This document shows, one piece after another, positions 1 to 22,600 of a stretch of 64,000 bases of DNA (its first letter is position 1; each line of letters begins with the position of its first letter). Below the pieces are notes generated by a model. It saw nothing but the letters and a program-made list of their open reading frames with translations, was not told the DNA's origin and ran no database searches. The translations under genes were made by a program, and so were the position numbers. This DNA comes from Marivirga aurantiaca (lineage in GTDB: Bacteria; Bacteroidota; Bacteroidia; Cytophagales; Cyclobacteriaceae): positions 1 to 64,000 of the forward strand of contig NZ_JAEQBW010000012.1 of the NCBI RefSeq assembly GCF_016679925.1, given 5' to 3'.

Positions 1-2
1 AG

Positions 3-122: not shown

Positions 123-133
123 AATACTAAAGT

Positions 134-295: not shown

Positions 296-301
296 TCCAT
301 T

Positions 302-700: not shown

Positions 701-712
701 TCTTTGTAATAA

Positions 713-1095: not shown

Positions 1096-1414
1096 AGCAT
1101 TTGGGTACGGTAAAGAGATTGACAAGGAGATACTCCATAGCTAAACTAATGTTTCTTTAAAGCGCTTTTTCTTTTGGGAAATCCCTAAAATAACGTATTA
1201 TTGAAACTGATTTTAATCTATACAAAATTGAAGTTCATATTTAAACCGATACTCAACCTGGAGGTAACCAGATTTGAATTATTGAATTTGCAGCCCATCT
1301 TTGACTGTTAGTGATACGCTGAAATTAACATGGTGATAAAGCTTTTATGCTTCACTATTTTTCAGATAGTTAGCTCATTAACTATTTTTCTTATCACAAT
1401 ACATTTTAAAATCA
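1096..1414. other. gene-free stretch between cassette region and isoaspartyl peptidase
   Basis: No convincing gene. The 5' part (to about 1200) holds remnants with no recognised similarity. The 3' part is the leader of the isoaspartyl peptidase gene and contains the shared regulatory motif at 1282-1316 plus an AT-rich segment with the short complementary pair GTGATAA/TTATCAC at about 1332 and 1390. Confidence 0.6.
1282..1316 (+). promoter_or_regulatory. shared cyanophycin-locus motif, copy 1 (isoaspartyl peptidase)
   Basis: Contains TTGCAGCC (1288-1295), then four bases, then TTTGACTGTTAGTGATA. The same string with the same spacing occurs upstream of susC (13963-13997) and of the secreted S51 peptidase gene (16163-16197), both on the other strand. 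The shared core is TTGCAGCCNATNTTTGAYTG. The motif ends 98 bases before the start codon. The NANNTTTG part resembles the Bacteroidota -7 promoter element (TANNTTTG), so it may be promoter plus activator site rather than an operator alone. Confidence 0.75.
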
Positions 1415-2338
1415 ATGCAAAAATATATTATAGCTATACATGGTGGTGCCGGCACTATCTTAAAAAAACATTTATCTCTGGAACAAGAAACAGCATATCA
1501 TGAGGCTTTAAGAGAAGCTTTGGAATTAGGACATGAGGTTTTGAATAAGAAAGGTACTGCTATTGAAGCCGTAACTCAAGCTGTAGAATCTATGGAAGAT
1601 AGCCCACTATTTAATGCAGGAAAAGGTGCTGTATATTCCAATGAAGGAAAGAATGAAATGGAAGCTTCCATTATGGAGGGGAAAAATTTAAATGCAGGAG
1701 CAGTTGCCGGCATAAGCAACATTAAAAATCCTATTCAGCTTGCTAAGACAATTTTACACGATCCCGAATTTGTTTACCTGATTGGTCATGGGGCTGAAGA
1801 ATATGCCGAAAAAAGAAAGCTCGACAAGGTGTCATCTGAATATTTTCGAACTAAGTTTAGAGAAGAGCAATGGTTAGCGGCAAAGAGTGAAGGTAAAGTA
1901 ATTTTAGATCATGATGCCGACAAAAAGTTTGGTACAGTAGGGGCAGTTGCTTTGGATAGTTTTGGCGATTTGGCAGCAGCTACCTCCACAGGTGGCTTAA
2001 CCAATAAAAAATATGGCCGGATTGGAGATAGCTCTGTAATAGGAAGTGGAACTTATGCCAATAATAATACCTGTGCTATTTCCTGCACAGGTTATGGAGA
2101 ATATTTTCTAAGAGCCGTTGTAGCTTATGATGTGGCCTGTCTGATGGATTATAAAGGATTAAGTTTAGCTGATGCCTGCCATGAAGTAGTGATGGGAAAA
2201 TTAGTGAAAATGAGGGGAGAAGGCGGTCTAATAGCTGTTGACGCCAAAGGGAACTATCAGTTTAGCTTTAATTCCGAAGGGATGTACCGTGGAGTTGTTG
2301 GCTCTGAAGTAAAATTGGGAACTTATATTTTTAAATAA
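1415..2338 (+). CDS. iaaA: isoaspartyl peptidase / plant-type L-asparaginase
   Basis: A 307-residue Ntn-hydrolase of the asparaginase-2 family. The N-terminus has the family signature HGGAGT (residues 9-14). The autocleavage site and nucleophile is Thr174 in FGTVGAVA, followed by the substrate-binding stretch STGGLTNKKYGRIGDS, with Arg202 and Asp205 as likely ligands of the substrate amino and carboxyl groups. It has no signal peptide, so it should act in the cytoplasm, cleaving beta-aspartyl dipeptides such as beta-Asp-Arg and possibly L-asparagine. Its leader carries the motif also found before susC and an S51 peptidase gene. This supports a role in the last step of cyanophycin breakdown. 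The substrate preference is inferred, not shown. Confidence 0.93.
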   Translation: MQKYIIAIHGGAGTILKKHLSLEQETAYHEALREALELGHEVLNKKGTAIEAVTQAVESMEDSPLFNAGKGAVYSNEGKNEMEASIMEGKNLNAGAVAGISNIKNPIQLAKTILHDPEFVYLIGHGAEEYAEKRKLDKVSSEYFRTKFREEQWLAAKSEGKVILDHDADKKFGTVGAVALDSFGDLAAATSTGGLTNKKYGRIGDSSVIGSGTYANNNTCAISCTGYGEYFLRAVVAYDVACLMDYKGLSLADACHEVVMGKLVKMRGEGGLIAVDAKGNYQFSFNSEGMYRGVVGSEVKLGTYIFK

Positions 2339-4403: not shown

Positions 4404-4598
4404 TTTATTACGCTACTTGATTTTTATGTCTCTTAGTTTTTCCAGTTATGAGACTAGTGCTAACCAACTGCAAAAGTAAGGATATTTATGCAGGATTATG
4501 ATTGTAAGCTTAAGCTATTTGAAGTGATGATAGATACTAACTTTCGGTCATCAACTTTTGATTTCAATCTTCATTTGGTATAGGTAATAATAAATTGC
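4404..4598. other. upstream region of the pseudouridine synthase gene
   Basis: AT-rich, with no gene. It presumably contains the promoter of the minus-strand pseudouridine synthase gene. Together with the MITE-like element (4599-4896) it makes up the 497-base gap before the transporter gene. Confidence 0.4.
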
Positions 4599-4896: not shown

Positions 4897-4900
4897 ATTG

Positions 4901-6271
4901 TTAAGCCCACTCAAAAAATAATACGGGGGGAATTAACAATAACATAGCCAGAATGGTAAAGGCTATAATAATAGGAAGTGACCATTTCAGCCATTTTTCA
5001 TAGGGAATTTTGGCAATGGACAATACACCCATTGTCACACCGCTAGTGGGGATTATAAGATTGGAAATACCATCTCCAAACTGAAAGGCCAATACTGCAG
5101 TTTGCCTGCCAATCCCCAATAAATCACTTAATGGCGCCATAATAGGCATAGTTAATGCGGCTTGTCCTGAACCCGAGGGTAAAAAGAAATTGAACAGACT
5201 TTGAACCAAAAACATGACCTGAATAGATAAATAACCCGGCATGCCATCAGCCAAGCCCGCAAGATTATATAAAATAGTATCAATAATTTTACCATCTGTA
5301 GCCAAAATCAACATTCCTTTTGATAAAGCTACTACTAAAGCAGCCGGCATTAAATCCTTTGCACCCTCTATAAATGCATCAATAGTTTTCTGCATTTTTA
5401 ATCTACCCAAAACAGCTGAAAATATTCCCAAGCCTACAAACAATGCGGCAATTTCATTAATATACCAATCCCATTCATTCACTCCATAAATAAGTAGGAC
5501 GATGGTCAAGGCGAATAATATGAGTATTATTTTTCTTAAAATAGTAAAGGAAACTTGCTCCGGGGCAGCATTTAAAGAAGCATTGGTATGGTAGGGTGTA
5601 ATTCGGTTTCTATCCAATAAAAAACAATAACGCAATATGAAAATATTAACAGCAACTGTGAAACAAAGCCACACAACCAATCGGTATTCCATTCCGCTAA
5701 AAGGGGTGAGTTCAGCTATTCCTTGTGCCACACCTATAGTAAATGGGTTAGCAAATGCCCCGGCAAAACCGGCTCCGGCTCCTAAAAAAGGAATGGCCAC
5801 ACCTACTAACACATCATAATTTAAAGCACGTGCCAATGGAATAGTGATTAAAATAAATACCAAAACCTCCTCACTCATTCCAAATGTGGCTCCGGCCAAT
5901 GAAAATAAGGTAATAATAATGGGCAGAATCCACTTTTTGGAAGCAGGATATCGATAACTATAGCTTACCACGTACTGCAAAGCTGCATCTATAGCTCCTG
6001 TTGCATTAATGATAGAAAAAGCTCCTCCTACCAACAATATAAAAGCAATGATTTGGGCTGCGGACTGGAAACCCGCTATGGGAGCTTGTAACAAATCAAA
6101 CAACCCTTGGGGCTCAGCCTCCACAAAAGAAAAAGAATCCGGATCAATTACTTCCCTGCCATTCACTACTTCCCTTTGATACTCCCCTGCCGGAATAAGC
6201 CATGTGAGCAATGTAAATATGACCAATATGGTAAATATAATAATGAGGGTATCCGGAAGCTTCTTTATCAT
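4901..6271 (-). CDS. YfcC/DcuC-family membrane transporter
   Basis: 456 residues with about 12 hydrophobic segments. The N-terminal motif LTWLIPAGEY (near residues 22-31) and the glycine-rich segments near GAGAGFAGAFANPFT and FFLPSGSGQAALTMP are typical of the C4-dicarboxylate anaerobic carrier-like (YfcC) group. Members of this family include arginine/ornithine exchangers in arc operons of some Firmicutes, while others are dicarboxylate carriers. Its ATG overlaps the stop of the upstream S51 lipoprotein peptidase gene (ATGA overlap), so the two are translationally coupled. In this locus the likely cargo is beta-Asp-Arg, arginine or aspartate crossing the inner membrane. That is inferred from neighbours. 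Confidence 0.85.
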   Translation of the reverse strand: MIKKLPDTLIIIFTILVIFTLLTWLIPAGEYQREVVNGREVIDPDSFSFVEAEPQGLFDLLQAPIAGFQSAAQIIAFILLVGGAFSIINATGAIDAALQYVVSYSYRYPASKKWILPIIITLFSLAGATFGMSEEVLVFILITIPLARALNYDVLVGVAIPFLGAGAGFAGAFANPFTIGVAQGIAELTPFSGMEYRLVVWLCFTVAVNIFILRYCFLLDRNRITPYHTNASLNAAPEQVSFTILRKIILILFALTIVLLIYGVNEWDWYINEIAALFVGLGIFSAVLGRLKMQKTIDAFIEGAKDLMPAALVVALSKGMLILATDGKIIDTILYNLAGLADGMPGYLSIQVMFLVQSLFNFFLPSGSGQAALTMPIMAPLSDLLGIGRQTAVLAFQFGDGISNLIIPTSGVTMGVLSIAKIPYEKWLKWSLPIIIAFTILAMLLLIPPVLFFEWA

Positions 6272-7116
6272 TGTGACAGTTTAAATTTTTCAGAAGGAAG
6301 ATAAATATTCAATTGGATATTTTCGGCACCCATTATTCCAGTTTTATGTTTTGTTGTTCCAGATTTATTTTCAAAAGTAATCACTTGCCACTCACCATAC
6401 ACTGTTGCGCTGTCATTTTTGACATAAATAGCAGTAGATTCATCAATTCCTATTCCTTTATGATCAGGCATTTCCATAATTGCTGTCAACAATCTATTGT
6501 ATCTACTTCTATAAACAAAGTGCTGATCTATGATGATACGCTGTGGCAACAAAGCTAAGCCCGAGTCAAATATGATATTATCCTTCTCTATTGTTCTAAA
6601 AGTGGGTTGGTAATCAGGGTGCTTTTTCTCATCTCCTGTAATCATCAGATGGCTCATAACTGCCGCCCCTGCACTAGTGCCGGCTATTACAGCTCCGTTT
6701 TCATAAGCAATTTTTATAGCTTTTCTTTCAGATTCAGATAGTGCCTCCATGAGTTTTCGCTGGTCACCACCAGCCAAATAGATTAAAGAAGCTTTAGAAA
6801 GACTGTTCTTTTCTGTATGGGAAAGAACAGTGTAATCTTTCATGTGGTGAATTCCTCTTTCCTGAAATTGTAAGTTGGCGTAGTAAAAAGCAGAATCATC
6901 GGCCGATGCCATAGGCAGAATAAATCCTTTCCCTTCTTTTATACTTGAAACTTTCACCAGGGCATCTATCATTTCTGCAGGCCTGGAGCCTCCACCTATG
7001 ATGAAAAGGCCTCCTTTAGAAGATTCACTAATGTCGTTTGTATCAATTTCTGTGTTTTTTTCCGGCTGGCAGGAAAAAGACAAAAGAATAATAAAGAGTA
7101 ATATATGTTTTATCAT
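6268..7116 (-). CDS. cyanophycinase-like S51 serine peptidase, lipoprotein
   Basis: 282 residues. Residues 1-16 are a lipoprotein signal ending in a SFSC lipobox (Cys16), so the enzyme is membrane-anchored outside the cytoplasm. Family S51 motifs follow in order: IIGGGSRP (39-46), LAGGDQ (114-119), the nucleophile elbow AGTSAGAA with Ser148, the DQHF motif with His199 and RYNRLL, and GIGIDESTA (221-229). The last two are more typical of cyanophycinase than of the shorter alpha-aspartyl dipeptidase PepE. It would release beta-Asp-Arg dipeptides from cyanophycin. It overlaps the transporter gene by four bases and begins just after a terminator-like hairpin (7121-7154). Confidence 0.88.
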   Translation of the reverse strand: MIKHILLFIILLSFSCQPEKNTEIDTNDISESSKGGLFIIGGGSRPAEMIDALVKVSSIKEGKGFILPMASADDSAFYYANLQFQERGIHHMKDYTVLSHTEKNSLSKASLIYLAGGDQRKLMEALSESERKAIKIAYENGAVIAGTSAGAAVMSHLMITGDEKKHPDYQPTFRTIEKDNIIFDSGLALLPQRIIIDQHFVYRSRYNRLLTAIMEMPDHKGIGIDESTAIYVKNDSATVYGEWQVITFENKSGTTKHKTGIMGAENIQLNIYLPSEKFKLSQ

Positions 7117-7120
7117 TATT

Positions 7121-7154
7121 CAAAAAAAATAAAGTCGGAAGAAAATCTTCCGGC
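7121..7154 (-). terminator. terminator-like hairpin inside the operon
   Basis: On the minus strand GCCGGAAGA, a short AT loop and TCTTCCGAC form a hairpin, followed at once by a T-rich run (TTTATTTTTTTT), the standard layout of an intrinsic terminator. It lies in the 57-base gap between the second PKD/propeller gene and the S51 lipoprotein gene. The next ATG starts five bases after the T-run. It may reduce read-through, so that the peptidase and transporter are made at lower levels than the upstream surface proteins. Confidence 0.7.
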
Positions 7155-7173
7155 TTCAAAACTAACCATTTAT

Positions 7174-8313
7174 TTAAAAATCCAAAGCAATACCTCTCGG
7201 AGATCCTTCTGCAACTAGCACTGTTTCAAGGTCTGAACCATCAAAATTAGCACTTCTGATGCGCTTAGCATCTCTATCGGACCAGTATACTTTGCCTTCA
7301 TCTGTATTCACAGCTATACCATAAGATCTACTTCCATTCGCTCCTATAGCTTCAAGAGAGGCTATCGTTTTTATATCAGAGTTATCATTTAAGCTTACAC
7401 TTTTAAGTCTATTATCATTTGGATCATCATAAATGGCCTGATCGCCAAAGTAGAGTCTTTCATTTACAGGATCAATACCCAAAGCATATCCCCAACTACC
7501 TGAAACAAACACTTCCAGACCTGAGCCGTTGGTATTTGCCCTGTAAATATTTTCCCCTACAGGAGGCACATCAACATCAGAAACATACATTTTCCCTGCA
7601 TGAACTACTATACCTTCTGGCAAGCTTAAACCTGTAAGAACAGTCTCAACGGCTCCTGAACCATCCATATTGGCACGCTGTACTGTTCCATCTGTTCTGT
7701 TGGTCCAATAAGCTTTACCGGCTTCCACATCCAAAGTCACACTACCTATTCCGCTCAGCCCTTCAAACAATATTTCAGTTTCAGTTCCATCAAGGTTCAT
7801 CCTTTTTAGCTGTAGATTATCATCATCGGCATAATAAATTTTAGCACCTGATCTATCAATTGCCAATCCGTTTCCAAAGCCATTAACTTCTTTGTTAACA
7901 TTTGTAAGGCCAACCCCTACTATTTGCAGTAGATCTGTATCCATATAATACAAATTGAAATCTATATTAATAGGCTGCAAAACAGCTACGTCTTTGGTGA
8001 GATTTTTAATTTCACCACTTGCAGATGTTATCAATACCAATTTCACATCATACTCGCCAAAGTTTTCATACTGATGCTCAGGCGATTCTTCTGTAGAAGT
8101 TGTTCCGTCTCCAAAAGACCAGGTGTAAGTCACAGAACCTGCATTCTCAGGCACTATGGACTCGTTATTGAATTTCAGAGTTTTTTGCTCCGCATCCAAT
8201 ACTTCAACAGAAAACTTTGGGACTGTGCTTGCCTGGGGCACAGGAAAATCATCATCAATAGATGTACAGGCCCCAAGCATTACAGTAAAGAAAAAATAAA
8301 TTAAATATCTCAT
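7174..8313 (-). CDS. PKD-domain beta-propeller lipoprotein, second paralogue
   Basis: 379 residues from the ATG at 8313. A TTG three codons earlier is possible but would abut the previous stop. A lipoprotein signal ends at Cys16 (MLGAC). Residues ~32-112 form a PKD domain with the typical YTWSFGDGTTSTEESPEH stretch. The rest is a propeller of YWTD/NHL type, with repeats such as KIYYADDDN, KAYWTNRTDGTVQRANMDG and KVYWSDRDAKRIRSANFDG. It is paralogous to the preceding gene. In SusCD loci, lipoproteins at this position are usually surface substrate-binding proteins. The ligand here is inferred to be cyanophycin or peptide fragments. No catalytic residues are evident. Confidence 0.85.
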   Translation of the reverse strand: MRYLIYFFFTVMLGACTSIDDDFPVPQASTVPKFSVEVLDAEQKTLKFNNESIVPENAGSVTYTWSFGDGTTSTEESPEHQYENFGEYDVKLVLITSASGEIKNLTKDVAVLQPINIDFNLYYMDTDLLQIVGVGLTNVNKEVNGFGNGLAIDRSGAKIYYADDDNLQLKRMNLDGTETEILFEGLSGIGSVTLDVEAGKAYWTNRTDGTVQRANMDGSGAVETVLTGLSLPEGIVVHAGKMYVSDVDVPPVGENIYRANTNGSGLEVFVSGSWGYALGIDPVNERLYFGDQAIYDDPNDNRLKSVSLNDNSDIKTIASLEAIGANGSRSYGIAVNTDEGKVYWSDRDAKRIRSANFDGSDLETVLVAEGSPRGIALDF

Positions 8314-8322
8314 GGAGAGCAA

Positions 8323-9510
8323 TTAATTTGTTTTCACAATAAACATTCCTCTATTTACCTTGGCTTCTTCAACAGAAAGCAACGTTTCTATCTCTGTTCC
8401 GTCTCTATTGGCTCTTTTAATAGTACCGTCTCTTGTAGACCAGTAAATTTTGTCTGCTTCATAATCTAATGCTATGCCATAGGTGTAATCATCAGTATCA
8501 ACAACCTGCTGCATATCAGTACCATCAAATTCAGTGCTTAATAAAGTATTGGAATCTGCATTATCAAAAATTAATCGATTATTTTCGGTATCAACTATTA
8601 CAGAATAACCAAATCCTCCTTCAGAATAATCTAATAACCTTTCTACAGTATTACCATCTGCACTAGCTTTCCAAAGTGCTTCAGCATCAAATTCTACACA
8701 AGTAAAATAAAGTTGGCCATTGTGGTAAGTCAAGCCTTCCGGTAAAAATGATTCCGGCATAAATTCCGCCCCTTCAATTGCTGTAGCCATAGCTGTAGAA
8801 TCATAAAGAACTGTTTTTTCACCTGTACTGATATTAACAGAAAGAATTTCATCAGCACCTCTATCTGCAACAAATAAAACAGAAGCATCTTCATTTATGG
8901 CTAAACCTCTTGGACCCATTAAACCTTCTGCAATAATTTCCTGTCCGCTTCCATCAATGTTTACCCTTACTACCTGACCATTATCATCATCACTATAATA
9001 TACTTTTTGGTTTGCTTCATCAAAAAACACCTGAATAGCATAACCTGTAGTTTCAAATGCTGTTTCAATAGTGGTTTCTAATCCTAAGCCTGATATCTTC
9101 TGCATGGTAAAAACATCTCCAGTATTATCTGCAAAATATACTTCGACTGGCTCAGCCTGTGGTTCAGGTGCCGTAACAGTAATAGGATTAGTTACAGTTA
9201 TACTTCCTCCTTCCCCTTTAGCTATTAAAGTAACAGAATAATCTCCTGCACTTTCATATGTATGAACTGCAGTAGCACCTGTACCTGTACCACCATCACC
9301 AAACGACCATTCAAATGTGTCTGCATTTTCAGATGTGGAAGTAAAGTTTACAACCTCTCCTACTTCAGGGGCCTCTGGGCTAAAGCTAAAGCTAGCAGTT
9401 GGTTCAGGTGTAGCTTCTTCATTATCATCATCATTACATGCTGGAAACAACACCACACTTAATCCCAAAAACAGGGACCATAACATCGGGAAATTTAATA
9501 TCCTTTTCAT
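8323..9510 (-). CDS. PKD-domain beta-propeller lipoprotein, first paralogue
   Basis: 395 residues. The signal peptide ends in a lipobox at Cys25 (LFPAC), followed by an acidic spacer (NDDDNEEATPE) of the kind linked to surface export of Bacteroidota lipoproteins. Residues ~37-112 are a PKD domain (FEWSFGDGGTGTGATAVHTY). From ~125 on it is a propeller with YWTD-like repeats (KVYYSDDDNGQVVRVNIDG, KIYWSTRDGTIKRANRDG). It sits 30 bases after susD and nine bases before its paralogue, in one operon. It is probably a surface-exposed binding protein working with the SusCD transporter. The duplication of the whole architecture in tandem is notable. Confidence 0.85.
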   Translation of the reverse strand: MKRILNFPMLWSLFLGLSVVLFPACNDDDNEEATPEPTASFSFSPEAPEVGEVVNFTSTSENADTFEWSFGDGGTGTGATAVHTYESAGDYSVTLIAKGEGGSITVTNPITVTAPEPQAEPVEVYFADNTGDVFTMQKISGLGLETTIETAFETTGYAIQVFFDEANQKVYYSDDDNGQVVRVNIDGSGQEIIAEGLMGPRGLAINEDASVLFVADRGADEILSVNISTGEKTVLYDSTAMATAIEGAEFMPESFLPEGLTYHNGQLYFTCVEFDAEALWKASADGNTVERLLDYSEGGFGYSVIVDTENNRLIFDNADSNTLLSTEFDGTDMQQVVDTDDYTYGIALDYEADKIYWSTRDGTIKRANRDGTEIETLLSVEEAKVNRGMFIVKTN

Positions 9511-9540
9511 ATTTTCTATTGTTTAGTTTAATTTTTTGTT

Positions 9541-10899
9541 TTAATAATCTGCATTTTGAACCATATCCGGATGGTTATTGGTATTCAATTCAGATTGTGG
9601 AATAGGGAATAGAAGTTTATTCGGATTGGTGATTTCCAAGACCTCCATAGCACGATCAGTTCTTACTAAATCATGCCATCTATGGCCTTCAAAAGCTAGT
9701 TCTTTTCTTCTTTCTAAAGCAATTGCCCTCCTTAAGATTTCCTGGTTTGTAGCATCAAGCGGGCCGACATCAGCTAATCCTGCCCTGTCACGGATGGCAT
9801 TCAGGAAATCGAATGCTTCCGAATTAGCATCATACGATTGTTCATTAATAGCCTCTGCAGCTACCATGTACATTTCCGCTAATCGAACAACTATCCAACT
9901 ATCATTTTCATTTTGAAGGTTATTGTATTTATTGGCATAATAGTCTCCATTAGATTCCCCAACAGAAACAGTAAAGCGATTATCACCTGTTTGATATAAT
10001 TCAAAAATCTCCTCAGTAGCAGCTGCTTCGTATCTTCCCGCTGCCAATAACCATTTGGCTATGGGATTTATATCATTATCGTTGACGAAATCTATTTGAA
10101 AGATTATTTCTTCGCTAGGGCTATTTTCATCAAAAATGGCTTCGTAATCCGGATCAAGCTCTAATCCAAACTCATTGATGACAGACTTAGCATAAGCTTC
10201 AGCTGCAGGCCAATCCTCCTGATAAAGTTTTACCCTGGCAAGTAAAGCTAAAATTGTAGGTTCATCAACTTTCAAACCACTTCCTTTACCACTACCTTCC
10301 ATTAGTTGTGCTGCTGTTTCTAAGTCATCAGAAATGAAAGTATAGGTTTCTGATTTAGATGCCCTGCCTATAAATAACTCCTCATTGGAGGCACCGGCAA
10401 CAGGCTCATCTCTTAAAGGAACTCCACCGTACATACGAACCAAATTAAAATAACAAAGTGCGCGTACCGTTCTCATTTCTGCCTCTGTACGATTAATTTC
10501 AGCATCAGACAAACCGCTCACACTGCTTAAATTAACCAATACATTATTTACCCGATTAATCACATCAAAATGGGCGTTCCAAACAGCTTCCACATATATA
10601 TTGTTGCTAAAGGAATCGTTATTATCAATGTTGATGTAATCTATTTTAGAACCTGCGGCCCTAAGATTATCTGCCGCTATATCAGCAATTACTACATAAT
10701 CCAAAACGATTGCCCCGCTTTGTAATCCGTCATAAACACCATTTACAGCTGCATCTAAGCCTCTTTTATCTGTAATGGCATTTTCTGAAAGAATGGTATC
10801 ATAGGGTGGATCCACATCTAACATTTCACATGAAGTAATCCAAAAGCAGATCAGCGTCAGAAAGTATATATTTTTATTTTTTTTCATTTTCTTGATCAT
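9541..10899 (-). CDS. SusD/RagB-family outer-membrane lipoprotein
   Basis: 452 residues with a lipobox at Cys24 (ITSC) and the typical start of the mature protein, EMLDVDPPYDT. The SusD-like N-terminal domain carries AEMRTVRALCYFNLVRMYGGVPL (about residues 139-161). The C-terminal domain ends in the family hallmark LAFEGHRWHDLVRT and LLFPIPQSELNTNN. It forms the lid over the SusC transporter and binds substrate outside the outer membrane. Its ATG directly follows the susC stop codon (adjacent bases), so translation is coupled. A second Met at residue 5 is an alternative start. Substrate is inferred from the peptidases in the locus, not from this protein. Confidence 0.95.
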   Translation of the reverse strand: MIKKMKKNKNIYFLTLICFWITSCEMLDVDPPYDTILSENAITDKRGLDAAVNGVYDGLQSGAIVLDYVVIADIAADNLRAAGSKIDYINIDNNDSFSNNIYVEAVWNAHFDVINRVNNVLVNLSSVSGLSDAEINRTEAEMRTVRALCYFNLVRMYGGVPLRDEPVAGASNEELFIGRASKSETYTFISDDLETAAQLMEGSGKGSGLKVDEPTILALLARVKLYQEDWPAAEAYAKSVINEFGLELDPDYEAIFDENSPSEEIIFQIDFVNDNDINPIAKWLLAAGRYEAAATEEIFELYQTGDNRFTVSVGESNGDYYANKYNNLQNENDSWIVVRLAEMYMVAAEAINEQSYDANSEAFDFLNAIRDRAGLADVGPLDATNQEILRRAIALERRKELAFEGHRWHDLVRTDRAMEVLEITNPNKLLFPIPQSELNTNNHPDMVQNADY

Positions 10900-13875
10900 T
10901 TAGAATGAAATATTTATACCTGCCGTATACATTTTTGGCACAGGAAAAGTGAAGAAATCAGTACCTTTACGAATTCCACTTGTACCTGAATAATTCACAT
11001 CAGGGTCCATGCCGGAATAAGGGGTAAGGGTTAAAATATTTTGTGCGCTTGCATAAATGCGTACATTGGTGAGTTTAATTTTGGAAATCCATTCAACAGG
11101 GAATCTATAACCCAATGTAATATTCCTTAACCGAAAGAAAGATCCATCCTCAATATAATGTGAGGTAATTTCATTATTAAACCTTCCATTAATTTTAGGC
11201 ACATTGGTTATATCTCCAGGCTCACGCCACCTCCTGTCAATCCTGGTAGCCTGATTATCGTTACTACCCAAATTCATGTTTTCTGTGTATTGGCGTGTTC
11301 CGTTAAAAATATCATTACCATAGCTAAACTGGCTTACAATAGATAAATCAATGTTTTTATAGTTCAGGTTTGTACTAATACCGCCTGTAAAATCAGGATT
11401 AGGGTCCCCAACTATTTGCTGATCCTGATCATTGGTCAATCCATCCCTATTGACATCCTCCATTACTAATTCGCCTGTTGAAGGATCAACTCCTAATGAT
11501 TTCAGCATATAAAAAACACCAATAGGCTGTCCTTCAATTAATGCGTTATTTCCTCTTCCTTGATTAATGATTGGCTGCCCTTCATATAGTGAAAGAATTT
11601 TATTTCTATTTATTGAGATATTTGCGTTGGTTGTCCATTGAAAGTCATCATTGGACAATAAAGTACCGTTTAAGGCAAATTCCAGTCCTCTGTTCTCCAG
11701 CTCCCCTATATTCTGATCGAAACCTGCATAGCCAGACGAGCCCGGAAGTGGTCTGAATTGTAGAAAATCGGTGGTTACATTGTAATAGGCATCTGCCGTC
11801 AATTGTAGCTTTCCTGATAGAAATGCCATATCCATTCCCACATTAGTATTGGTGGTAACTTCCCAACTTAAATCCGGGTTAGGAATTTGAACAGGTATAA
11901 TCCCTGGTTGTGAATTGTAATTAAAACCTGATCCGTAAAGAGATAAAAATCTGGCCCTACCTATTTGATCATTACCTAGCTTACCATAGCCCAAACGCAA
12001 TTTAAGATCATTAAATATACTTTGGTTTTGCATAAAGCTTTCCTCTATTAACCTCCATCCAACTGAAACTCCGGGAAGAACCTGGTATCGGTTATCTGGG
12101 GCAATATTGGAGCTTCCATCTGCCCTTACATTAAGAGTAAGTATATACTTATCTTTAAAAGCATACATCAAACGACCAAAAAATGAGTTGATGGCATATT
12201 CGCTTCCGCTTGCAGTTGCACTTTCGATATTACCTGCTCCTGAAATATACCTTAAATCATTAGTAGGAAAATTATTGGCTCTAATAAAGTCAAATCTGTC
12301 ATTTATAATTTCAAAACTTGACCCCACCAAGGCAGTAATATCATGCGCTTTATTAATGTACTTATTATATTCTAAAGTAGAATTTTGAACAAGTTTGGTT
12401 ACTCTTGTATTGGCACTGACACCAATTCCTCCACTTTGCGCACCTCTTCGAGTAGTTGTTGGCTCATACCTTCTTTCCATTAGGTGATAATAATCTAAGC
12501 CCACCTGATTTCTGAATTTTAAGTCGTCAGTAATACGATAGTCCCAACCTATGTTAAACAAGGTTCTGAATGACTCTGCTACATTATCTGCTTCCGAACC
12601 ATTAGCTACAGGATTATCCCAAAAACCCTGCTCCACATAATTGCCGTTTTCATCATAAATGGGATCAACAGGTGGTTTAGAGATAGCATTAGGTAACACA
12701 CCATTAATGGTTTGATCACCCGGCACCCTATTATTTTCAGAAAAGCTAATGTTTAATTTAGTGTCTATGCTTAGTTTATTATTTACTTTATGATCTAAAT
12801 TTAACCTTCCGCTATAACGTGTATAGTCTGTACCGATAATGATTCCTTCCTGATCAAAAATCGAGGTTGAAGCATAAAATTTTGTCTTTTCCCCACCACC
12901 TGATGCGGTTAACTGATGATTTTGGATAGGGGCGATACGAAGGACAGCATCCTGCCAATCTGTATCTACAGGATTATTATTGATTTGTTCCTCAGAATAA
13001 ACTTCAGGTCGTTCCTCATCTGCAGCAATATCATTTACATATTGCTTAAACTGGCCGGCATCCAATAAATCCAGTTTTTTATAGATTTGTTGAGTGCCAT
13101 AATAAGAGTTCAGGCTAAATTTTGTCGCGCCTTTTTCTCCTGATTTGGTTGTAATCAATACTACTCCATTAGCACCTCTTGCTCCATAAATAGCAGAAGC
13201 AGAGGCATCTTTAAGTATAGAGATAGATTCAATATCATTAGGATTCAGATCGGAAATGGCACTGATCCCTTGGCCTTCATAACTAATTTGACCGAGATTT
13301 TCCGAAGTAATTGGAACGCCATCGACCACATATAAAGGCTGGGTACCTCCTGAAATAGAATTTTGACCCCTCACCTGAATGGATAATGCTGCTCCGGGAG
13401 TGCCGGAATTCTGATTCACTTGTACACCTGCTACTTTTCCCTGTAAAGAAGAGCTTATATCAGGATTGATAGTATTTGAAAGTTCCTTGGAATCAGCTTG
13501 AGCAACTGAACCTGTCAATAATTTTCTATCCACAGAACCATACCCTACAACTACTACTTCAGAAAGCTGCGAAACATCAGATTTTAATTTCACATCAATT
13601 GTTGTCCTGCCATTTACTGGTATTTCCTCAGTTTTCATACCTATAAAGGAATAGAGCAGCACGTCATCTTTGCCGGCATTTAATTGATACTTGCCCTCAA
13701 GATCGGTCGTTGTTCCTGCTCCTGAACCCTTGACTATTACATTAACACCTGGCAATGGTATGTTATCTTCAGTGGAACTGACGGTTCCTTTTACAGTTAT
13801 GGACTGTGCATTTATCTCAACAGCAAATACACATATAGCCCAAAAAGCCATAAGCAACTTGATAAAAGTTCTCAT
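10900..13875 (-). CDS. SusC/RagA-family TonB-linked outer-membrane transporter
   Basis: 991 residues. A signal peptide (to about residue 23, EINAQ) is followed by a carboxypeptidase-regulatory-like domain (~27-100), the TonB-box region LSEVVVVGYG (~103-112), a plug with the SusC signature GGTQPLYVVDGVPI and SILKDASASAIYGARGANG, and a long beta-barrel ending in MYTAGINISF. It imports oligomers too large for porins in partnership with SusD. The leader of 238 bases contains the shared motif at 13963-13997. In this setting it most plausibly takes up cyanophycin fragments or aspartate/arginine-rich peptides, which would be an unusual cargo, since most SusC proteins import glycans. Confidence 0.95.
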   Translation of the reverse strand: MRTFIKLLMAFWAICVFAVEINAQSITVKGTVSSTEDNIPLPGVNVIVKGSGAGTTTDLEGKYQLNAGKDDVLLYSFIGMKTEEIPVNGRTTIDVKLKSDVSQLSEVVVVGYGSVDRKLLTGSVAQADSKELSNTINPDISSSLQGKVAGVQVNQNSGTPGAALSIQVRGQNSISGGTQPLYVVDGVPITSENLGQISYEGQGISAISDLNPNDIESISILKDASASAIYGARGANGVVLITTKSGEKGATKFSLNSYYGTQQIYKKLDLLDAGQFKQYVNDIAADEERPEVYSEEQINNNPVDTDWQDAVLRIAPIQNHQLTASGGGEKTKFYASTSIFDQEGIIIGTDYTRYSGRLNLDHKVNNKLSIDTKLNISFSENNRVPGDQTINGVLPNAISKPPVDPIYDENGNYVEQGFWDNPVANGSEADNVAESFRTLFNIGWDYRITDDLKFRNQVGLDYYHLMERRYEPTTTRRGAQSGGIGVSANTRVTKLVQNSTLEYNKYINKAHDITALVGSSFEIINDRFDFIRANNFPTNDLRYISGAGNIESATASGSEYAINSFFGRLMYAFKDKYILTLNVRADGSSNIAPDNRYQVLPGVSVGWRLIEESFMQNQSIFNDLKLRLGYGKLGNDQIGRARFLSLYGSGFNYNSQPGIIPVQIPNPDLSWEVTTNTNVGMDMAFLSGKLQLTADAYYNVTTDFLQFRPLPGSSGYAGFDQNIGELENRGLEFALNGTLLSNDDFQWTTNANISINRNKILSLYEGQPIINQGRGNNALIEGQPIGVFYMLKSLGVDPSTGELVMEDVNRDGLTNDQDQQIVGDPNPDFTGGISTNLNYKNIDLSIVSQFSYGNDIFNGTRQYTENMNLGSNDNQATRIDRRWREPGDITNVPKINGRFNNEITSHYIEDGSFFRLRNITLGYRFPVEWISKIKLTNVRIYASAQNILTLTPYSGMDPDVNYSGTSGIRKGTDFFTFPVPKMYTAGINISF

Positions 13876-13962
13876 AAAAAAATTGTTATTATTGAATTAT
13901 AAATTCCCTAAATAGTAATGGAGGTTACTTTTCATGATTTTGAAAAGTGTCAGAATGGAAAT

Positions 13963-13997
13963 GCTACTAACAATCAAATATTGGCTGCAAATTCATT
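13963..13997 (-). promoter_or_regulatory. shared cyanophycin-locus motif, copy 2 (susC)
   Basis: Read on the minus strand it gives TGAATTTGCAGCC, four bases, then TTTGATTGTTAGTAG. It shares 13 consecutive bases (TGAATTTGCAGCC) with the isoaspartyl peptidase copy and the same TTTGA-TGTTA core with all copies. It ends 87 bases before the susC start codon. Confidence 0.75.
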
Positions 13998-14113
13998 AAG
14001 GTTAATGATTTACGCGCTTGCACAGGAATGGCTTTAGAGCTTCTATATATATTATTTGGTCTCATCCGTATGTAATATTAAATATATCCTAAATAAAAAG
14101 CAAATTGAAATGA

Positions 14114-16117
14114 TTAGTTTTTTATCATTTTATTTACATAATATAAGTTATCATTTTTCTTTTTAATAATTATTAGATAGTGTCCATCAGAAAGATGATT
14201 TAAATTTATATGGTTATCCCTAATTGTATCTTTCTTTATAAATACTAGTTTCCCATTTGTATTAAAAATATTAATTTCCTCTATTTCAGATAGTGGTAAA
14301 TTTATTCTAATAATATCTTTTACCGGGTTATTCAATAAAATATTATCATACAGTACAGTATCCAAATTAGAAAGTACTGTTTCCTCCTCCAACTCATAAT
14401 CTTCCTGCTCTTTTTCTTCTACAGCACCTAATAAAATATCAGTATTTCGGGAAATTTTGAAAGTCAAGCTATCAAAGGCATATTGCATTCTGCTTATATT
14501 ACCATTTACAGTTTGGGAAGTTTGTTCATAAAGTGTACTTCCATTATGTATTATTACAGAAGGCAAATTGCCACCAGTTTTTAACACTGCTTCTGATGAC
14601 TCAGTCACTATATAAGAAAAATATGAATTGCCGGTTAAATATATTCCATATGATAATTCTTCAGTTAAAATACGATCAACTAATGAGGAGCTTATGTTTT
14701 CGTAAAAATCCTTTGCATCTATTTCAAATGATTTAGAAATTATATTGATATCAGAAAGTAAATTAAGACCTTCATCAAAAATTAAATCATTATAATAAGC
14801 GTTAAAAGGATCCGAATAAATATTAGTGCTATAACTTTTTCCTACCTGCTGAACTATATCACCTAGGAAAATGCTACTCACATTATTTCTTTTTAAATGA
14901 TTAAGCAATAGCTCTCCTGTAGGCCCACCTGAAAAGAAATTGTTTATTTGAATACCATCTAAAATAAGGATCAAGCCAGACTGCCGAATGAGATTTCGTA
15001 AGCCCGCTTTATCTTCACCATTATTTTCAGATGAAGTAGTGATTATAAAAACCTTCCGGTTTTGGTTTTCTTCAAAATAGTCTTTGTAGGATTCAGCTAA
15101 ATTATCATCCTCATCAGCTAAAATTATAATATTACCATCCATTAAATTACTTTGCAAAACTTCAGTCAGTAAAGATTCGTTGTCGGAAATGGATTTTACT
15201 CCTGAACCAAATACTTGATAATAAGCCCCATTCATAATTGGATCAGAGCTCTTTGCCAATGTTCTATCGCTTATTTTCCCCAGATTTAAATCATAGGTTT
15301 GACCATGAGTCAATTGTGCAGACTTAATTTCAGAATCAGTGATTTGATTATTCTCTATATCAAATTTTTCTGGAAAATAAATGGAAGCCGCTCCTGTGCC
15401 ATAAACAGTCCCTAATCCTTCAGAATCAATACATAAAGACGTTTTATCATCAACACCAATTCCTGTAATCATTTCTCCTTGTTGACCAAACCAATGGGCC
15501 AAAAATCCAATAAGGCGTGCAGTTCTACCTCTTTCAACAAAGTGTGTATCAAAAATATAGTGCGGATAAAAAGAAAGAAAATCATTATTTAAGGTAAAAT
15601 ACTGACTGTTGATATTCTCTAAGGCATCTATTGGATAGACTGACCCTGCTTCTGCGGTAAATATTACACCTGATAAAATAGCCATGCCGGCACTTGTTCC
15701 ACCAATTACACCGCCTCTATTGTAAATAGTTTCAATTGCCTGCTGGACAGAGGTGTTCTTATAGAATTCATAATATTTTGATTGATCACCTCCTTTAAAA
15801 AACAAGGCATCATATTCACTAAGTTGGTTAAACATAGCTGAAGTTGCTGCCTCGGCTCTTGAACTTATTTTTATATTGTCTGCCTCAGCCGCTCCTAAAC
15901 TCTTAAAATAATTAGGAAGCCATTCATCTGCTTCATTATAACTAATAATGCCAATTTTTTTATTTGAAGCATTCTCCACCATCCAGCTATAAGGTAGATC
16001 ACTCCAGCCTCCATTACTTTCGGATCCTCCACCTACTAACATGAGATTACCTTGCGAGAAATTTGAAAAAGGAACAAATAAAAAGCTTCCTATAAAGAAG
16101 ATGATTTTTTTAAACAT
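14114..16117 (-). CDS. secreted cyanophycinase-like S51 peptidase with T9SS tail
   Basis: 667 residues from the ATG at 16117, which begins a good signal peptide (MFKKIIFFIGSFLF...SNFSQ). The longer frame to 16174 would run through the shared promoter motif and is rejected. Residues ~24-270 are an S51 domain with LVGGGSE (27-33), FFKGGDQ (106-112), GGTSAGMA with nucleophile Ser142, the DTHFVERGR motif with His192, and GIGVDDKT. Residues ~270-590 have no family I recognise. The C-terminus (~595-667) looks like a type A T9SS sorting domain (GKLVF, LSDGHYLI). It should therefore be secreted or surface-attached and act first on polymer outside the cell. It is transcribed toward susC. Confidence 0.87.
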   Translation of the reverse strand: MFKKIIFFIGSFLFVPFSNFSQGNLMLVGGGSESNGGWSDLPYSWMVENASNKKIGIISYNEADEWLPNYFKSLGAAEADNIKISSRAEAATSAMFNQLSEYDALFFKGGDQSKYYEFYKNTSVQQAIETIYNRGGVIGGTSAGMAILSGVIFTAEAGSVYPIDALENINSQYFTLNNDFLSFYPHYIFDTHFVERGRTARLIGFLAHWFGQQGEMITGIGVDDKTSLCIDSEGLGTVYGTGAASIYFPEKFDIENNQITDSEIKSAQLTHGQTYDLNLGKISDRTLAKSSDPIMNGAYYQVFGSGVKSISDNESLLTEVLQSNLMDGNIIILADEDDNLAESYKDYFEENQNRKVFIITTSSENNGEDKAGLRNLIRQSGLILILDGIQINNFFSGGPTGELLLNHLKRNNVSSIFLGDIVQQVGKSYSTNIYSDPFNAYYNDLIFDEGLNLLSDINIISKSFEIDAKDFYENISSSLVDRILTEELSYGIYLTGNSYFSYIVTESSEAVLKTGGNLPSVIIHNGSTLYEQTSQTVNGNISRMQYAFDSLTFKISRNTDILLGAVEEKEQEDYELEEETVLSNLDTVLYDNILLNNPVKDIIRINLPLSEIEEINIFNTNGKLVFIKKDTIRDNHINLNHLSDGHYLIIIKKKNDNLYYVNKMIKN

Positions 16118-16162
16118 AGATAAATTATTAATAATACAAATAAATCTTCCGGGGAGGAAAAG

Positions 16163-16197
16163 TATTATTAACAATCAAAAATAGGCTGCAATCCACG
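16163..16197 (-). promoter_or_regulatory. shared cyanophycin-locus motif, copy 3 (secreted S51 peptidase)
   Basis: On the minus strand: GGATTGCAGCC, then TATT, then TTTGATTGTTAATAATA. Here the segment TATTTTTG matches the Bacteroidota -7 element TANNTTTG exactly. It ends 45 bases before the chosen start codon at 16117 and overlaps the longer alternative start at 16174, which is one reason for preferring the shorter protein. Confidence 0.75.
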
Positions 16198-16283
16198 TAA
16201 CTGTAGAGATTTCGATTGAAAAAAATCGAAATTATGAAGAACAATCCTGTAGTGCTTTATTAATTGCATAGTGCTAATTAAAC

Positions 16284-16316
16284 AAAAAAACCGAATCATC
16301 AAAATAATTCGGTTTT
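16284..16316 (-). terminator. terminator, duplicated copy 1
   Basis: AAACCGAAT and ATTCGGTTT form a stem with an A-run on one side and a T-run on the other, so it can act on both strands. The 26 bases from CCGAATC to CGGTTTT are identical to the hairpin at 16815-16851, which follows the HesB/IscA gene. It ends the minus-strand unit that includes the 114-aa gene. Confidence 0.8.
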
Positions 16317-16356
16317 AGAATCCAAAAAAAGGAAATCATATATGGGTATGCGATTG

Positions 16357-16380
16357 AATAGAAAAACTTTCACCACACCC
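16357..16380 (-). pseudogene. remnant of a HesB/IscA 3' end
   Basis: Read on the minus strand, these 24 bases encode GCGESFSI, identical to the last eight residues of the HesB/IscA protein at 16895-17221. A stop codon lies two codons upstream in the same frame, so no functional protein is possible. The remnant is followed at similar spacing by the same terminator as the intact gene. It therefore looks like the residue of a duplicated iscA 3' end. Confidence 0.65.
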
Positions 16381-16417
16381 TATTTATTTCACTAATCTGA
16401 TTTGACATAAATTCTCT

Positions 16418-16762
16418 TTATGGTATAATAGTATAAGATTGAGTAACTACCACTTCTTCTAGATTATCACGAGAGGTCCCACATAAACAAGTTGCTTCAA
16501 TTGTCTGTGTTGTTCCGATTGCTGATTGGTTCCAAGTAATTGACAATGTTTTATTAGTTACACTTCCCCATAAAGTAGCGCCTGAAGGGATTGAACTCCA
16601 GCGTAAAAATCTACAATCGCCAGGAATTGAACTCCCGGATACTACAAATGCTTGGTCTCTTCCAGCACTATTTGGAATTTGATGAGTTGTTATTGAGGTA
16701 ATTCCCAAATTGTAATTATTGATTACAATAAAGGTCATTAAAGATAAAATTAATAATTTCAT
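16418..16762 (-). CDS. small secreted Ig/PKD-like hypothetical protein
   Basis: 114 residues. The N-terminal ~15 residues are hydrophobic (LLILSLMTFIVI) and may be a signal peptide without a clear cleavage site. The rest is Ser/Thr/Gly-rich and beta-prone with four cysteines (including CLCG near residue 92), resembling a single Ig-like or PKD-like fold seen in Bacteroidota surface proteins. The family is not recognised. The gene lies between two identical terminators and a duplicated iscA end, which suggests an insertion or a duplication followed by replacement. Confidence 0.5.
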   Translation of the reverse strand: MKLLILSLMTFIVINNYNLGITSITTHQIPNSAGRDQAFVVSGSSIPGDCRFLRWSSIPSGATLWGSVTNKTLSITWNQSAIGTTQTIEATCLCGTSRDNLEEVVVTQSYTIIP

Positions 16763-16814
16763 GATTTATAAAGTTAAGATTAAACATTTTTGAATCTAGG
16801 AATTAATAGAAATA

Positions 16815-16851
16815 AAAAAAAACCGAATCATCAAAATAATTCGGTTTTTTT
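16815..16851 (-). terminator. terminator of the HesB/IscA gene, duplicated copy 2
   Basis: The stem AAACCGAAT / ATTCGGTTT around an AT loop is followed by a T-run on the minus strand, 44 bases after the HesB/IscA stop codon. It is identical in its core to the hairpin at 16284-16316. Confidence 0.85.
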
Positions 16852-16894
16852 CTAATAAAATAGAATCATATTTTGACTCAAGAGCCAAGTACAG

Positions 16895-17221
16895 CTATAT
16901 TGAGAAACTTTCACCACAACCGCAAGTACGCGTGGCATTTGGGTTCACAAACTGAAAGCCTTTTCCGTTTAATCCATCAGAAAAATCCAAAGTGGTTCCT
17001 AATAGGTAAAGCATACTTTTTTTATCCACCAAAAGCTTAATGCCTTTGTCTTCAAAAATCTCATCTCCATCCTTAAGGCTTTCGTCAAAACTTAAGTCGT
17101 ACATTAATCCTGAACAACCTCCGCCTTTAACTGAAACCCTAACATTGGATTCAGGTGTATGACCTTCTTCTATTTTCAACTTTGATAATCTGGTTTTTGC
17201 ACTATCTGTTACTGTAATCAT
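16895..17221 (-). CDS. HesB/IscA-type iron-sulfur cluster carrier
   Basis: 108 residues, the usual length for A-type carriers. The three ligand cysteines are present: Cys36 in GGGCSGLMY, and Cys100 and Cys102 in TCGCGESFSI at the C-terminus. It should accept an Fe-S cluster or iron from the assembly scaffold and pass it to client enzymes in the cytoplasm. Sequence alone does not separate IscA, SufA and ErpA subgroups. It follows a 136-aa gene by 13 bases, so the two are likely co-transcribed, and it ends at the terminator 16815-16851. Confidence 0.93.
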   Translation of the reverse strand: MITVTDSAKTRLSKLKIEEGHTPESNVRVSVKGGGCSGLMYDLSFDESLKDGDEIFEDKGIKLLVDKKSMLYLLGTTLDFSDGLNGKGFQFVNPNATRTCGCGESFSI

Positions 17222-19661: not shown

Positions 19662-22600
19662 ATGGCTTCAGCAAAGAAGAAAAGTACAGGAAGCAAAATA
19701 TTGAAAGTTACAGGCATTATCTCTGCCGTTATATTTGGCCTAATCCTTATAGTTACTATACTTTTCTTAACTGTACTGGAACCCTACACTGAACGCTTAT
19801 TAAAAAAACAAGTCACTCAAAACACAAAAGGATTATATGAATTAGATTTTGAGGATTTAGACATCAATCTCTTGTCAACTACTATCCGCTTAAATAATAT
19901 AAAGCTGACTTACGACTCCACAAAACATCAAAAACTGAAAGCAAAAAGTGAAGCTGGTTCTTTCCTATTGGATGTTAAAACTGATGAATTAGAAGTTTCA
20001 GGAATCAATGTACTAGATTACCTGATCAGGTCCCGTATCAACATCCACTCTATATTAATTGATCAACCAGAGGTGAAGATGATTCATGACACAGGTGTAA
20101 TTCAAAAGAAAAAGAAACAGGATATTAGCGAGACTATTAATTCCATTGGAATTGACAATTTCGATTTGCAAGATGCTCAAATTTCCTACCATAAATATGA
20201 AAAGAAGGAAGAGGCTGTTCACAAAATACCTCAGCTAAATGTAAAAGTAAGCGATTTTATAGCTGATTCGTTTGACAAGGAGGATATTCGGGAGATGATT
20301 GATATGGATGATTTATTTATCAGCTTAAAAAACCAATCCTTCACCACATCTAATAATGTGTACAATTTGAAATTTGACCTTTTCAGTTATTCAATAGCTG
20401 AACAACAATTAAAGCTTGAAGCTTTTTCAGCCATAGGAGATCATAAAGAAATGGCCGGGCCTATGATAGCTCCCGAAATTCAAGTCCCGCTTTTAAAAAT
20501 GGACGGTCTTGAATTAATGGAAGCTTTAAAAACTAAAAAACTACATCTTGACGAATTACTAATAGATAGTACCTTCGTTAAACTTTATGAAATCCCCGAT
20601 CTTGACATCACTGTAACAGATGTTTATCGTGCCCTGGCGCAATTGTTTGAAGTTACGGAAATAGATAATTTAAATATTAACCGAAGCAAGGTCAGTATGT
20701 ATTCCAGGGAAAACAAAGACGTACTAATACAAAAAATAGAGCATGTGGACCTCTTGTTGGAAGAGGTTTCTTTTGATTCCCTTAGTGTTTTTGACCCCAG
20801 AAATAATCTCGCTTTGCAGCAATTGACATTAAAAGTAGAAGATTACATTTTACAGCCGGAAGAAAGCCCTTACACTTTCACATTAGCCCAACTGGACATG
20901 AACACAAAGAAAGACCATCTTAAACTGAGAGATTTAAAGCTTTCATCGGATATCACGAAAAACAAACAACTAAGGTATAGTTCAGGAAAGGCAAGCGCAC
21001 AATTAGTCGATTTTACAATTCCAGAAATACAATTTGGTGGTATTGATATGATCCGCGCTTTTAAGCATTCGAATCTGGATATAAATAAAATAGCTATTCT
21101 AAATCCTACAGCCAGTATTGCCAAAGCTTTTGAACAAAAATCTTCGGGCAATGAATTTTCCCCAGAAGATATTTACAATAGCTTTTCATTTTTTGTGAAA
21201 GAAATTAATATTCAGGAGTTTTTGATATCAAATGCTGAGTTAAGTCAATACCCAACAGAATATAAGGTACATAAGCTTCATCATATAGAGCAAGCAAGGC
21301 TCAGTTTGAGCGGTATCCATTTTGACTCAGCTATAGCCTATCATAATAAAACTTATGCTCCTATAGAGGAAATATTTTTGGGGTTAAACCACTATTCATA
21401 TACTACTCCAGGCAATGCAAAATCTTTTCAAATGGGGCCTTTAAGCTACTCCAGCAATCAGGAAAATTTAGAAATAAATAATATTCAATACGAATCACGT
21501 CCTGAGCTACCAATAAATAAGGCTGATTCTTTGATAATTTCCGCAGGACATTTTTCTATTTCCAATTTTAATATTGTTGAGGCCTTCAATAAAGGGAGCT
21601 TGCAAATGGGAGAAATTCTGCTACAAAGTCCGGATATATATGTTAGTAGAGGTATAAAGCCAAAACAGACCAATTCTGAAGAAAGCCAAAGTTCTGAGAC
21701 GATCCCTGGAGAAGAAATATTCCAATGGATTAATCCTATAAGTGTGGAATCAATAAGGATAGTTGATGGAACCGCTGATTATATAGAAAGATTAGCTGAT
21801 GTGACAAATTTCCAGAATCTGCAGGGCTTTTTAGTAGAAGTAAACCAGCTGAAACTTACTCCCGAAAATATTAAAAACACTGAAAACATCATACCTGTAG
21901 ACAATATAATAGTAAAGGCTAAAAATTACACCTTCCACTCACCTGACAGCATTTATACCGTAACCTTGGATAGTTTATTTTATGCCTCTGATGAAGGTAA
22001 TTTAAAGGCCAATCATTTTCAGCTAAGGCCTGATTATAAATTACATGAGTATAGAGTAGAAAATGAAATTGATAATTCTCATCGCAACTTATTTGAGATA
22101 TCTTCAGATCAATTTAGCATTAAGAAATTTGACCTCATCAATGCTTACAATACAGGCTTGTATACTTTCGGAGAAGTCTTACTGACAGCTCCTGATGTTT
22201 CCATTCTCCAGAATAAGCAGGTGGTCAATTACCAGCAAAAAATGGATTCTATTGGTCAGCAATCAAATGAGAAACAACAAAGCAAAGATTCAGAAAACCT
22301 GAAACAAGATAATACTGAAGAAAAGATTGATGAGGATATACAAAAACAAATAGATGAATATGTAAGCATATTTAAAATAGACAGTTTACGTATTGAGGAA
22401 GGCAAATTCTTACTTGAAATACTTAAAAATGATAGTGTAAGGGAGAGTCAGGAACTGGAGCATCTTTCATTACTTGTAGAAAACCTTCAACTTTCAGATT
22501 TGGAAGCACATGATCTGACAGATATATTCTCAGTAGATGATATTGATTTATTATTAAAGGACTACAATTTCATCACCCCTGATAGCCTTTATGAACTACG

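Follow-up and report, generated by a model that had tools for sequence, protein, structure and literature searches.

TnaC, the leader peptide of the E. coli tryptophanase operon, acts at its stop codon by blocking RF2, and the stalled ribosome shields a Rho site; the gamma-proteobacterial SpeFL senses L-ornithine and blocks RF1 by termination arrest at its stop codon (excerpts of PMC8429421). In cyanophycin catabolism, cyanophycinase releases beta-Asp-Arg, which an isoaspartyl dipeptidase then splits, and such clusters occur with amino-acid transporters in genomes without cphA1 (excerpts of PMC10206079). Here we analyzed a stretch of 64,000 nt from Marivirga aurantiaca (contig NZ_JAEQBW010000012.1, positions 1 to 64,000; the window), in which three copies of a short motif precede an isoaspartyl peptidase gene, a susC gene, and a secreted S51 peptidase gene. 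The SusCD-type system of this locus probably imports and degrades cyanophycin (multi-Arg-poly-Asp). An earlier note on this DNA read the motif as a promoter with an activator site. The three copies are not a promoter or an activator site. With a probability of about two in three, we consider the motif to be the 3' end of a short regulatory open reading frame (ORF) encoding a putative metabolite-sensing leader peptide, which would arrest the ribosome at the stop codon and is repeated for each transcription unit.

Among the closest known systems is TnaC, likewise a short leader peptide ahead of genes for catabolism and uptake and followed by a Rho site (excerpts of PMC8429421); the spacers here are likewise C-rich and G-poor, a likeness in composition only. 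However, the tnaC stop codon is UGA, whereas the stop here is mostly TAG and thus a codon for RF1. SpeFL shares with most of the leaders an RF1-dependent stop and responds to a metabolite of arginine metabolism, but its signal is free ornithine, whereas the signal here would likely be beta-Asp-Arg or Arg/Asp. Unlike TnaC, the leader occurs in several copies per genome, in another pathway and another phylum, and its arrest is putative. We know of no sequence resemblance of the leader peptide to TnaC or SpeFL, and to our knowledge there are hardly any descriptions of metabolite-sensing arrest peptides from outside Proteobacteria. Attenuators of the TrpL/HisL type also have a small ORF in the 5' leader of amino-acid genes and exert control by codon runs; here it is the residues that are fixed while the codons vary freely, and the genes serve catabolism. 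For Flavobacterium psychrophilum, clues were reported that operons of amino-acid biosynthesis are preceded by leader-peptide attenuation (excerpts of PMC9723704). The cyanophycin catabolic clusters of PMC10206079 contain the same pair of cyanophycinase and isoaspartyl dipeptidase, but the excerpts mention neither a SusCD system nor a leader peptide, and 'TonB' is absent from the main text. In the open-licence PubMed Central literature, QPIFDC and QPIFNC were not found, and apparently nothing links cyanophycin with a leader peptide.

The motif copies lie at 1288-1311 (plus strand), 13967-13990 (minus), and 16168-16191 (minus), confirming the earlier note's three copies on both strands. A window search allowing up to three mismatches gave no further match (0.01 expected). 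The pattern CARCCNATHTTYGAYTGYTA had 3 exact matches in the whole genome (5.01 Mb, 36 contigs), the reversed pattern had 0 matches across the 5.01 Mb, and one mismatch added a single copy (C33:202612, LQPVFDC-stop). This copy is 211 nt upstream of the likely ATG (172 nt from a TTG) of a further S51 cyanophycinase-like gene. Three matches with two mismatches in the same genome had a chance-like appearance and were dismissed. Each window copy reads in frame as TTG CAG CCn ATn TTT GAY TGT TAR, that is, LQPIFDC-stop, and all base differences among the three copies within these eight codons are synonymous. The four variable bases of the earlier description do fall between CC and TTTGA, but only two of them vary, the third positions of the Pro and Ile codons, with an invariant AT between them. 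The isoaspartyl peptidase and susC copies share the 13 bases TGAATTTGCAGCC, and the distances from motif to start codons are about as described; the similarity past the stop (TRATA) is not conserved among relatives.

Upstream of each window copy, the reading frame stays open as far as a plausible start, giving leader ORFs of about 27-33 codons. The leader before the isoaspartyl peptidase gene (1228..1311, plus) has 27 codons from TTG 1228, ends in LQPIFDC-TAG, and shows codon-level conservation in 3 relatives. Its start is uncertain, as an alternative TTG at 1201 would give 36 codons and overlap the -7-like element. The susC leader (13967..14065, minus) reads MRPNNIYRSSKAIPVQARKSLTLMNLQPIFDC-TAG, 32 codons from ATG 14065, and the leader of the secreted S51 gene (16168..16269, minus) reads MQLIKHYRIVLHNFDFFQSKSLQLRGLQPIFDC-TAA, 33 codons from ATG 16269. 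Within the coding part of the latter there is a perfect inverted repeat, ATTTCGATT/AATCGAAAT (16209-16232, minus), which may pause transcription.

The conservation is that of a peptide. The leader consensus is K-x-L-x-L-x-(G/N)-L-Q-P-(I/V)-F-(D/N)-C-stop, and the 89 matches retained as genuine comprise 82 distinct 24-mers at the DNA level, which encode 2 peptides. Because the search pattern was codon-degenerate, the unbiased tests are those outside the core. Numbering Cys as -1, K-14 is found in 73 of 89 leaders, L-10 in 81, and G/N-8 in 84, and all six Leu codons are in use for Leu-10. Entropies at codon positions 1, 2, and 3, again outside the pattern, were 0.72, 0.15, and 1.28 bits for residue -14 and 1.27, 0.52, and 1.91 bits for residue -10. 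In the 18 codons ahead of LQP, 178 single-base codon changes were synonymous and 66 non-synonymous, whereas chance predicts 183 of 244 to be non-synonymous (42 pairs from 17 hand-picked ortholog groups; residues -25 to -8, a range that reaches above the start in the shortest leaders). The N-termini of the leaders are unrelated, while the last residues through the stop are the same, and conservation is sharpest in the last 7 codons plus the stop. With a search pattern that demanded a TAR stop, the leaders use TAG in 76 of 89 cases (TAA in 13), compared with TAG in 68 of 314 ORFs of at least 200 codons. No LQP(I/V)FDC-TGA was found in the loci searched for stop variants; the Asn variant described below also uses TGA. 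The sharp constraint at the last 7 codons and the stop, together with the TAG bias, points to events at termination. The analyses of starts, codon entropy, and stops were done on 90 sites, including one match (L040) that was removed for the 89-site set.

Bacteroidota promoters have the consensus TTG-N18-22-TAnnTTTG. Scored against this consensus, 58% of 88 regions upstream of leader starts reached at least 8 of 9, compared with 10% of shuffled sequences, while 6% of 81 spacers between leader and gene did so, compared with 12% of shuffled ones. Among the window leaders, the score was 8 for one and 7 for two. On the same basis, a promoter-like TTTG-N19-TATTATTG lies upstream of the first leader ORF (1173..1203, plus), and TTTC-N20-TATATTTA, matching at 7 of 9, ends 13 nt ahead of the susC leader ATG (14079..14110, minus). 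Since promoter-like elements are found upstream of the leader and not in the spacers, the leader is most likely part of the mRNA. The sequence thus predicts that transcription starts upstream of the motif, the outcome that the earlier note had named as speaking against its promoter reading.

Spacers have a median length of 93.5 nt (range 18-353, n = 84). Their C>G skew is 0.29 (n = 77), compared with 0.05 in control 5' regions (n = 169), and in the last 45 nt it is 0.37 compared with 0.13. They also fold tighter than 150 controls (mean z -1.43 and -0.60, respectively). In the window, the isoaspartyl peptidase spacer (1312..1414, plus, 103 nt) is structured (z -3.06) and contains a terminator-like hairpin at 1365-1386 plus a T run. 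No terminator-like hairpin was found in the spacers before susC (13876..13966, minus, 91 nt) and the secreted S51 gene (16118..16167, minus, 50 nt). No Rfam family reached the gathering threshold in window positions 1000-17000, and two sub-threshold RNA-family matches in positions 1-17000 were implausible. Pfam gave no match for 3 leader peptides, nor did NCBIfam for 4.

The leader is found well beyond the genus. In the family, 18 of 390 genomes had a match to the leader pattern (control 0), with 1-5 copies per genome and at least three copies in 11 of the 18. When 84,980 species genomes were scanned, at least 60 stretches had a match; among the matches listed (60 stretches), 55 were from Bacteroidota, 2 from unassigned bacteria, and the other 3, from Legionella, Firmicutes, and Pelagibacteraceae, were judged to be chance. 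Leader-bearing taxa include Marivirga (Cytophagia), Phaeodactylibacter (Saprospiria), and Christiangramia (Flavobacteriia). The genus and family loci and the stretches listed from the species-genome scan make up a set of 96 distinct matches, nearly all from Bacteroidota. Counting genes on the same strand within 1.8 kb of the match, 85 of the 96 have a gene for SusC, S51, isoaspartyl peptidase, or an associated type IX secretion system (T9SS) protein downstream (SusC 40, a protein of about 300 residues 16, isoaspartyl peptidase 12, secreted S51 10, and S51 lipoprotein 7). Four matches lie at a sequence end with 36-462 nt remaining. The other seven were chance-like and were dropped (L040, L063, L077, L082, L104, L115, and L122); L115, with only 116 nt downstream, was judged by peptide context alone. 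Two further pattern matches (L143 and L190) were dismissed as chance, as was one in genome G078, which has no in-frame stop codon at that place. Since the SusC superfamily alone is not diagnostic, matches were also counted per stretch: an S51 or isoaspartyl peptidase homolog is present in 54 of the 64 stretches with a non-chance match (some overlapping).

A relaxed search of the collected loci added six leaders ending in LQPIFNC-stop, which by position also precede genes of the set. In a phylum sample of 395 genomes, LQPIFNC leaders occur in two genomes of another family of the same class, G452 (2) and G595 (4), and a match in G682 was chance-like. The leaders of G452 precede susC-susD-isoaspartyl peptidase-S51-transporter-S51, and genes of the arginine-deiminase and dimethylargininase families follow the leader-linked genes. 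Two leaders are present at some loci, arranged in tandem or placed on divergent genes. The tandem leaders (L085, L095, L111, L113, L119, L141, and L142) are about 163-193 bp apart and different, each ending in LQPIF(D/N)C. They precede susC except in L119, where the sequence ends, and L141 has a second tandem pair before an S51 gene. The secreted-type protein of about 300 residues has its own leader at twelve loci (L064, L068, L075, L084, L086, L092, L094, L105, L106, L108, L116, and L121) of Saprospiria and Flavobacteriales, several of them divergent from susC and often then followed by isoaspartyl peptidase or S51 genes. Two examples were scanned: in one, a Cleaved_Adhesin domain is accompanied by a T9SS sorting domain that scores below the cut-off, and the other has a T9SS domain.

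The leader is also linked to genes of the cyanophycinase family. Within the genus, a homolog of the secreted S51 protein is present in 6 of 10 genomes, and exactly these bear the leader. A TIGR02069 match was found in 18 of 18 family genomes with a leader match, compared with 19 of 62 without one (P = 5e-8); when G098, whose only match is the dismissed L040, is counted as leaderless, the numbers become 17 of 17 and 20 of 63 (P = 1.6e-7). These counts, together with those per match and per stretch, support the single regulon that the earlier note had proposed. Nine of the 19 genomes with a TIGR02069 match but no leader match were sampled by loci that cover some of the S51 genes of each, one of them through only 3 kb, and in eight of the nine these loci had no SusCD, isoaspartyl peptidase, or transporter homologs and no leader-like sequence. 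The three S51 proteins of the M. aurantiaca genome (two in the window and one on C33) score 121, 102, and 61 bits against TIGR02069, all below the cut-off of 126.6, while the operon S51 proteins of two relatives pass it (G002, 135 bits; G003, 132 bits). For all three proteins, the top three Protein Data Bank (PDB) hits are the cyanophycinases 7uqv, 3en0, and 7uqw, and the aligned stretches retain GTSAG and GGDQ.

We propose that the leader lies in the 5' leaders of the transcription units of the SusCD system, each of which would be transcribed from its own promoter and translated. With a pathway metabolite present (beta-Asp-Arg, or released Arg/Asp), the nascent peptide would block termination at UAG/UAA, and the stalled ribosome would cover the C-rich, G-poor RNA 3' of the stop. 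Rho-dependent termination, or in a few cases intrinsic termination instead, would thus be prevented and the downstream gene would be made. Fixed residues up to the stop, free codons, the stop bias, repeated copies, and C-rich spacers are consistent with a peptide that arrests termination in the manner of TnaC and SpeFL. Since several units per genome have their own leader copy, the nascent peptide, not a DNA operator, would define the regulon. A more specific form of this proposal is tentative, and we put the odds somewhat against it: the nascent peptide would sense the isopeptide beta-Asp-Arg in the ribosomal tunnel, would be copied before pathway units in three Bacteroidota classes so that an arrest peptide and not a transcription factor defines the regulon, and would control SusCD outer-membrane uptake.

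Several points weigh against the arrest-peptide proposal. Because the pattern used to find the 8-codon core was codon-degenerate, part of the synonymy within the core comes from the search itself, and the spacer and pair counts take in related sequences that are not independent. Several leaders have GTG/TTG starts only. SusC proteins form a huge superfamily, and SusC homologs, often with identities of 27-38%, account for 40 of the 85 downstream genes. Ten of the 64 stretches have no S51 or isoaspartyl peptidase homolog inside the stretch (8 with SusC only or SusC with SusD, 2 with neither). Two of the ten, each 14 kb long, come from G005 and G009 (M. arenosa), where the sole leaders precede the SusCD pair and the S51 gene is 22-23 kb away; no leader was recognised in the 1.7 kb around the distant S51 gene of G009. 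In the ninth sampled leaderless genome, G012 (L188 and L189), comparable isoaspartyl peptidase, transporter, and S51 genes are present and no leader was found; this natural exception would be useful for a comparison of regulation. The C-richness of the spacers, a matter of composition only, is weak evidence for Rho. Terminator-like hairpins occur in 8 of 77 spacers (3.9 expected) and in one of the three window spacers, and attenuation by intrinsic terminators was rejected on this count as the general mechanism. Opening of the downstream start codon by a stalled ribosome is not general either (P = 0.48, n = 74), although it is seen singly for the isoaspartyl peptidase leaders of Christiangramia and Marivirga.

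The rival explanation that survives best is arrest without a ligand, either a constitutive stall or a monitor of translation rate, nitrogen status, or export, with specificity given by a separate factor. It would leave the same constraint on peptide and stop codon, and the ligand of our proposal is itself putative; however, the link to one catabolic gene set in three classes favors a pathway-specific signal, and we consider this explanation unlikely. Classical attenuation, in which a shortage of one amino acid makes ribosomes stall at its codons, followed by an RNA switch, irrespective of the peptide sequence, would suit a short ORF in the 5' leader of amino-acid-yielding genes, the hairpin in the isoaspartyl peptidase spacer, and the susC leaders of G005 and G009 with their Arg-rich RHRRCNR. 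The leaders, however, share no run of Arg, Asp, or other codons, the heptapeptide is fixed up to the stop with residues rather than codons constrained, only 8 of 77 spacers have terminator-like hairpins, and starvation control suits biosynthesis rather than uptake, all of which makes it improbable. The small ORF is real and conserved, and it could encode a free peptide acting in trans (a signal, pheromone, or antimicrobial precursor) and not on its own mRNA. We regard this as highly improbable given the 1-5 copies per genome, nearly all before a unit of the set, the chance-like context of all seven matches elsewhere, the unrelated N-termini joined to shared last residues, and the lack of a Pfam or NCBIfam family. 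A DNA operator for an activator near the promoter, as the earlier note suggested from the fixed spacing of three copies before co-functional genes on both strands, is very improbable in view of the synonymous variation (positions 1-2 constrained and 3 free, also at K-14 and L-10, and 82 distinct 24-mers) and of promoter-like elements that lie upstream of the ORF and are not enriched downstream, and a Pfam scan of 15 ORFs at 1.4-23.6 kb of the window (3 of them without any match) found no DNA-binding family.

The genes served by the window leaders are as follows. The isoaspartyl peptidase, or type 2 asparaginase (1415..2338, plus), is IaaA-like (Pfam PF01112, E = 3e-106; best PDB hit 2zak). On the minus strand, the SusC/RagA-type TonB-linked outer-membrane transporter (10900..13875; TIGR04056, 885 bits) is followed by the SusD-family lipoprotein (9541..10899), a PKD-domain/propeller-like protein of the susC operon (8323..9510), a second such protein (7174..8322), the S51 cyanophycinase-like protein with the TIGR02069 score of 121 bits (6268..7116), and a DcuC/YfcC-family inner-membrane transporter (4901..6271). 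The secreted S51 cyanophycinase-like protein, also on the minus strand (14114..16117), has a T9SS sorting domain. Near-identical terminator-like inverted repeats, ccgaatcatcaaaataattcgg, lie about 530 bp apart at 16283-16316 and 16817-16851, and a 1309-residue protein without a Pfam match at E 0.01 is encoded at 19662-23591 (plus). Small ORFs are flanked by a repeat of about 150-190 bp (138-284 and 940-1125) with long inverted ends, ATGAATGAATGGGG ... CCCCACTCATCAT. It has 14 matches in the genome, some of them short, and may be an integron attC-type site or a similar cassette element.

In our best reading, the leader is a distinct, undescribed family of regulatory leader peptides and serves as the mark of a whole regulon. 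The heptapeptide tag has enough specificity to find these loci across genomes on its own, naming possible new parts of the pathway. For example, the T9SS-type protein of about 300 residues may have a role in cyanophycin scavenging that has gone unrecognised. The leader-linked genes seem to let some aquatic bacteria feed on the nitrogen polymer cyanophycin, and the leader peptide probably senses this food during its own synthesis on the ribosome. Regulators of the sigma/anti-sigma, AraC, or hybrid two-component type are the ones usually considered for SusCD systems. If our proposal is true, a regulon could also be built differently, from one pathway-specific leader peptide that stands ahead of as many as five units in a genome.

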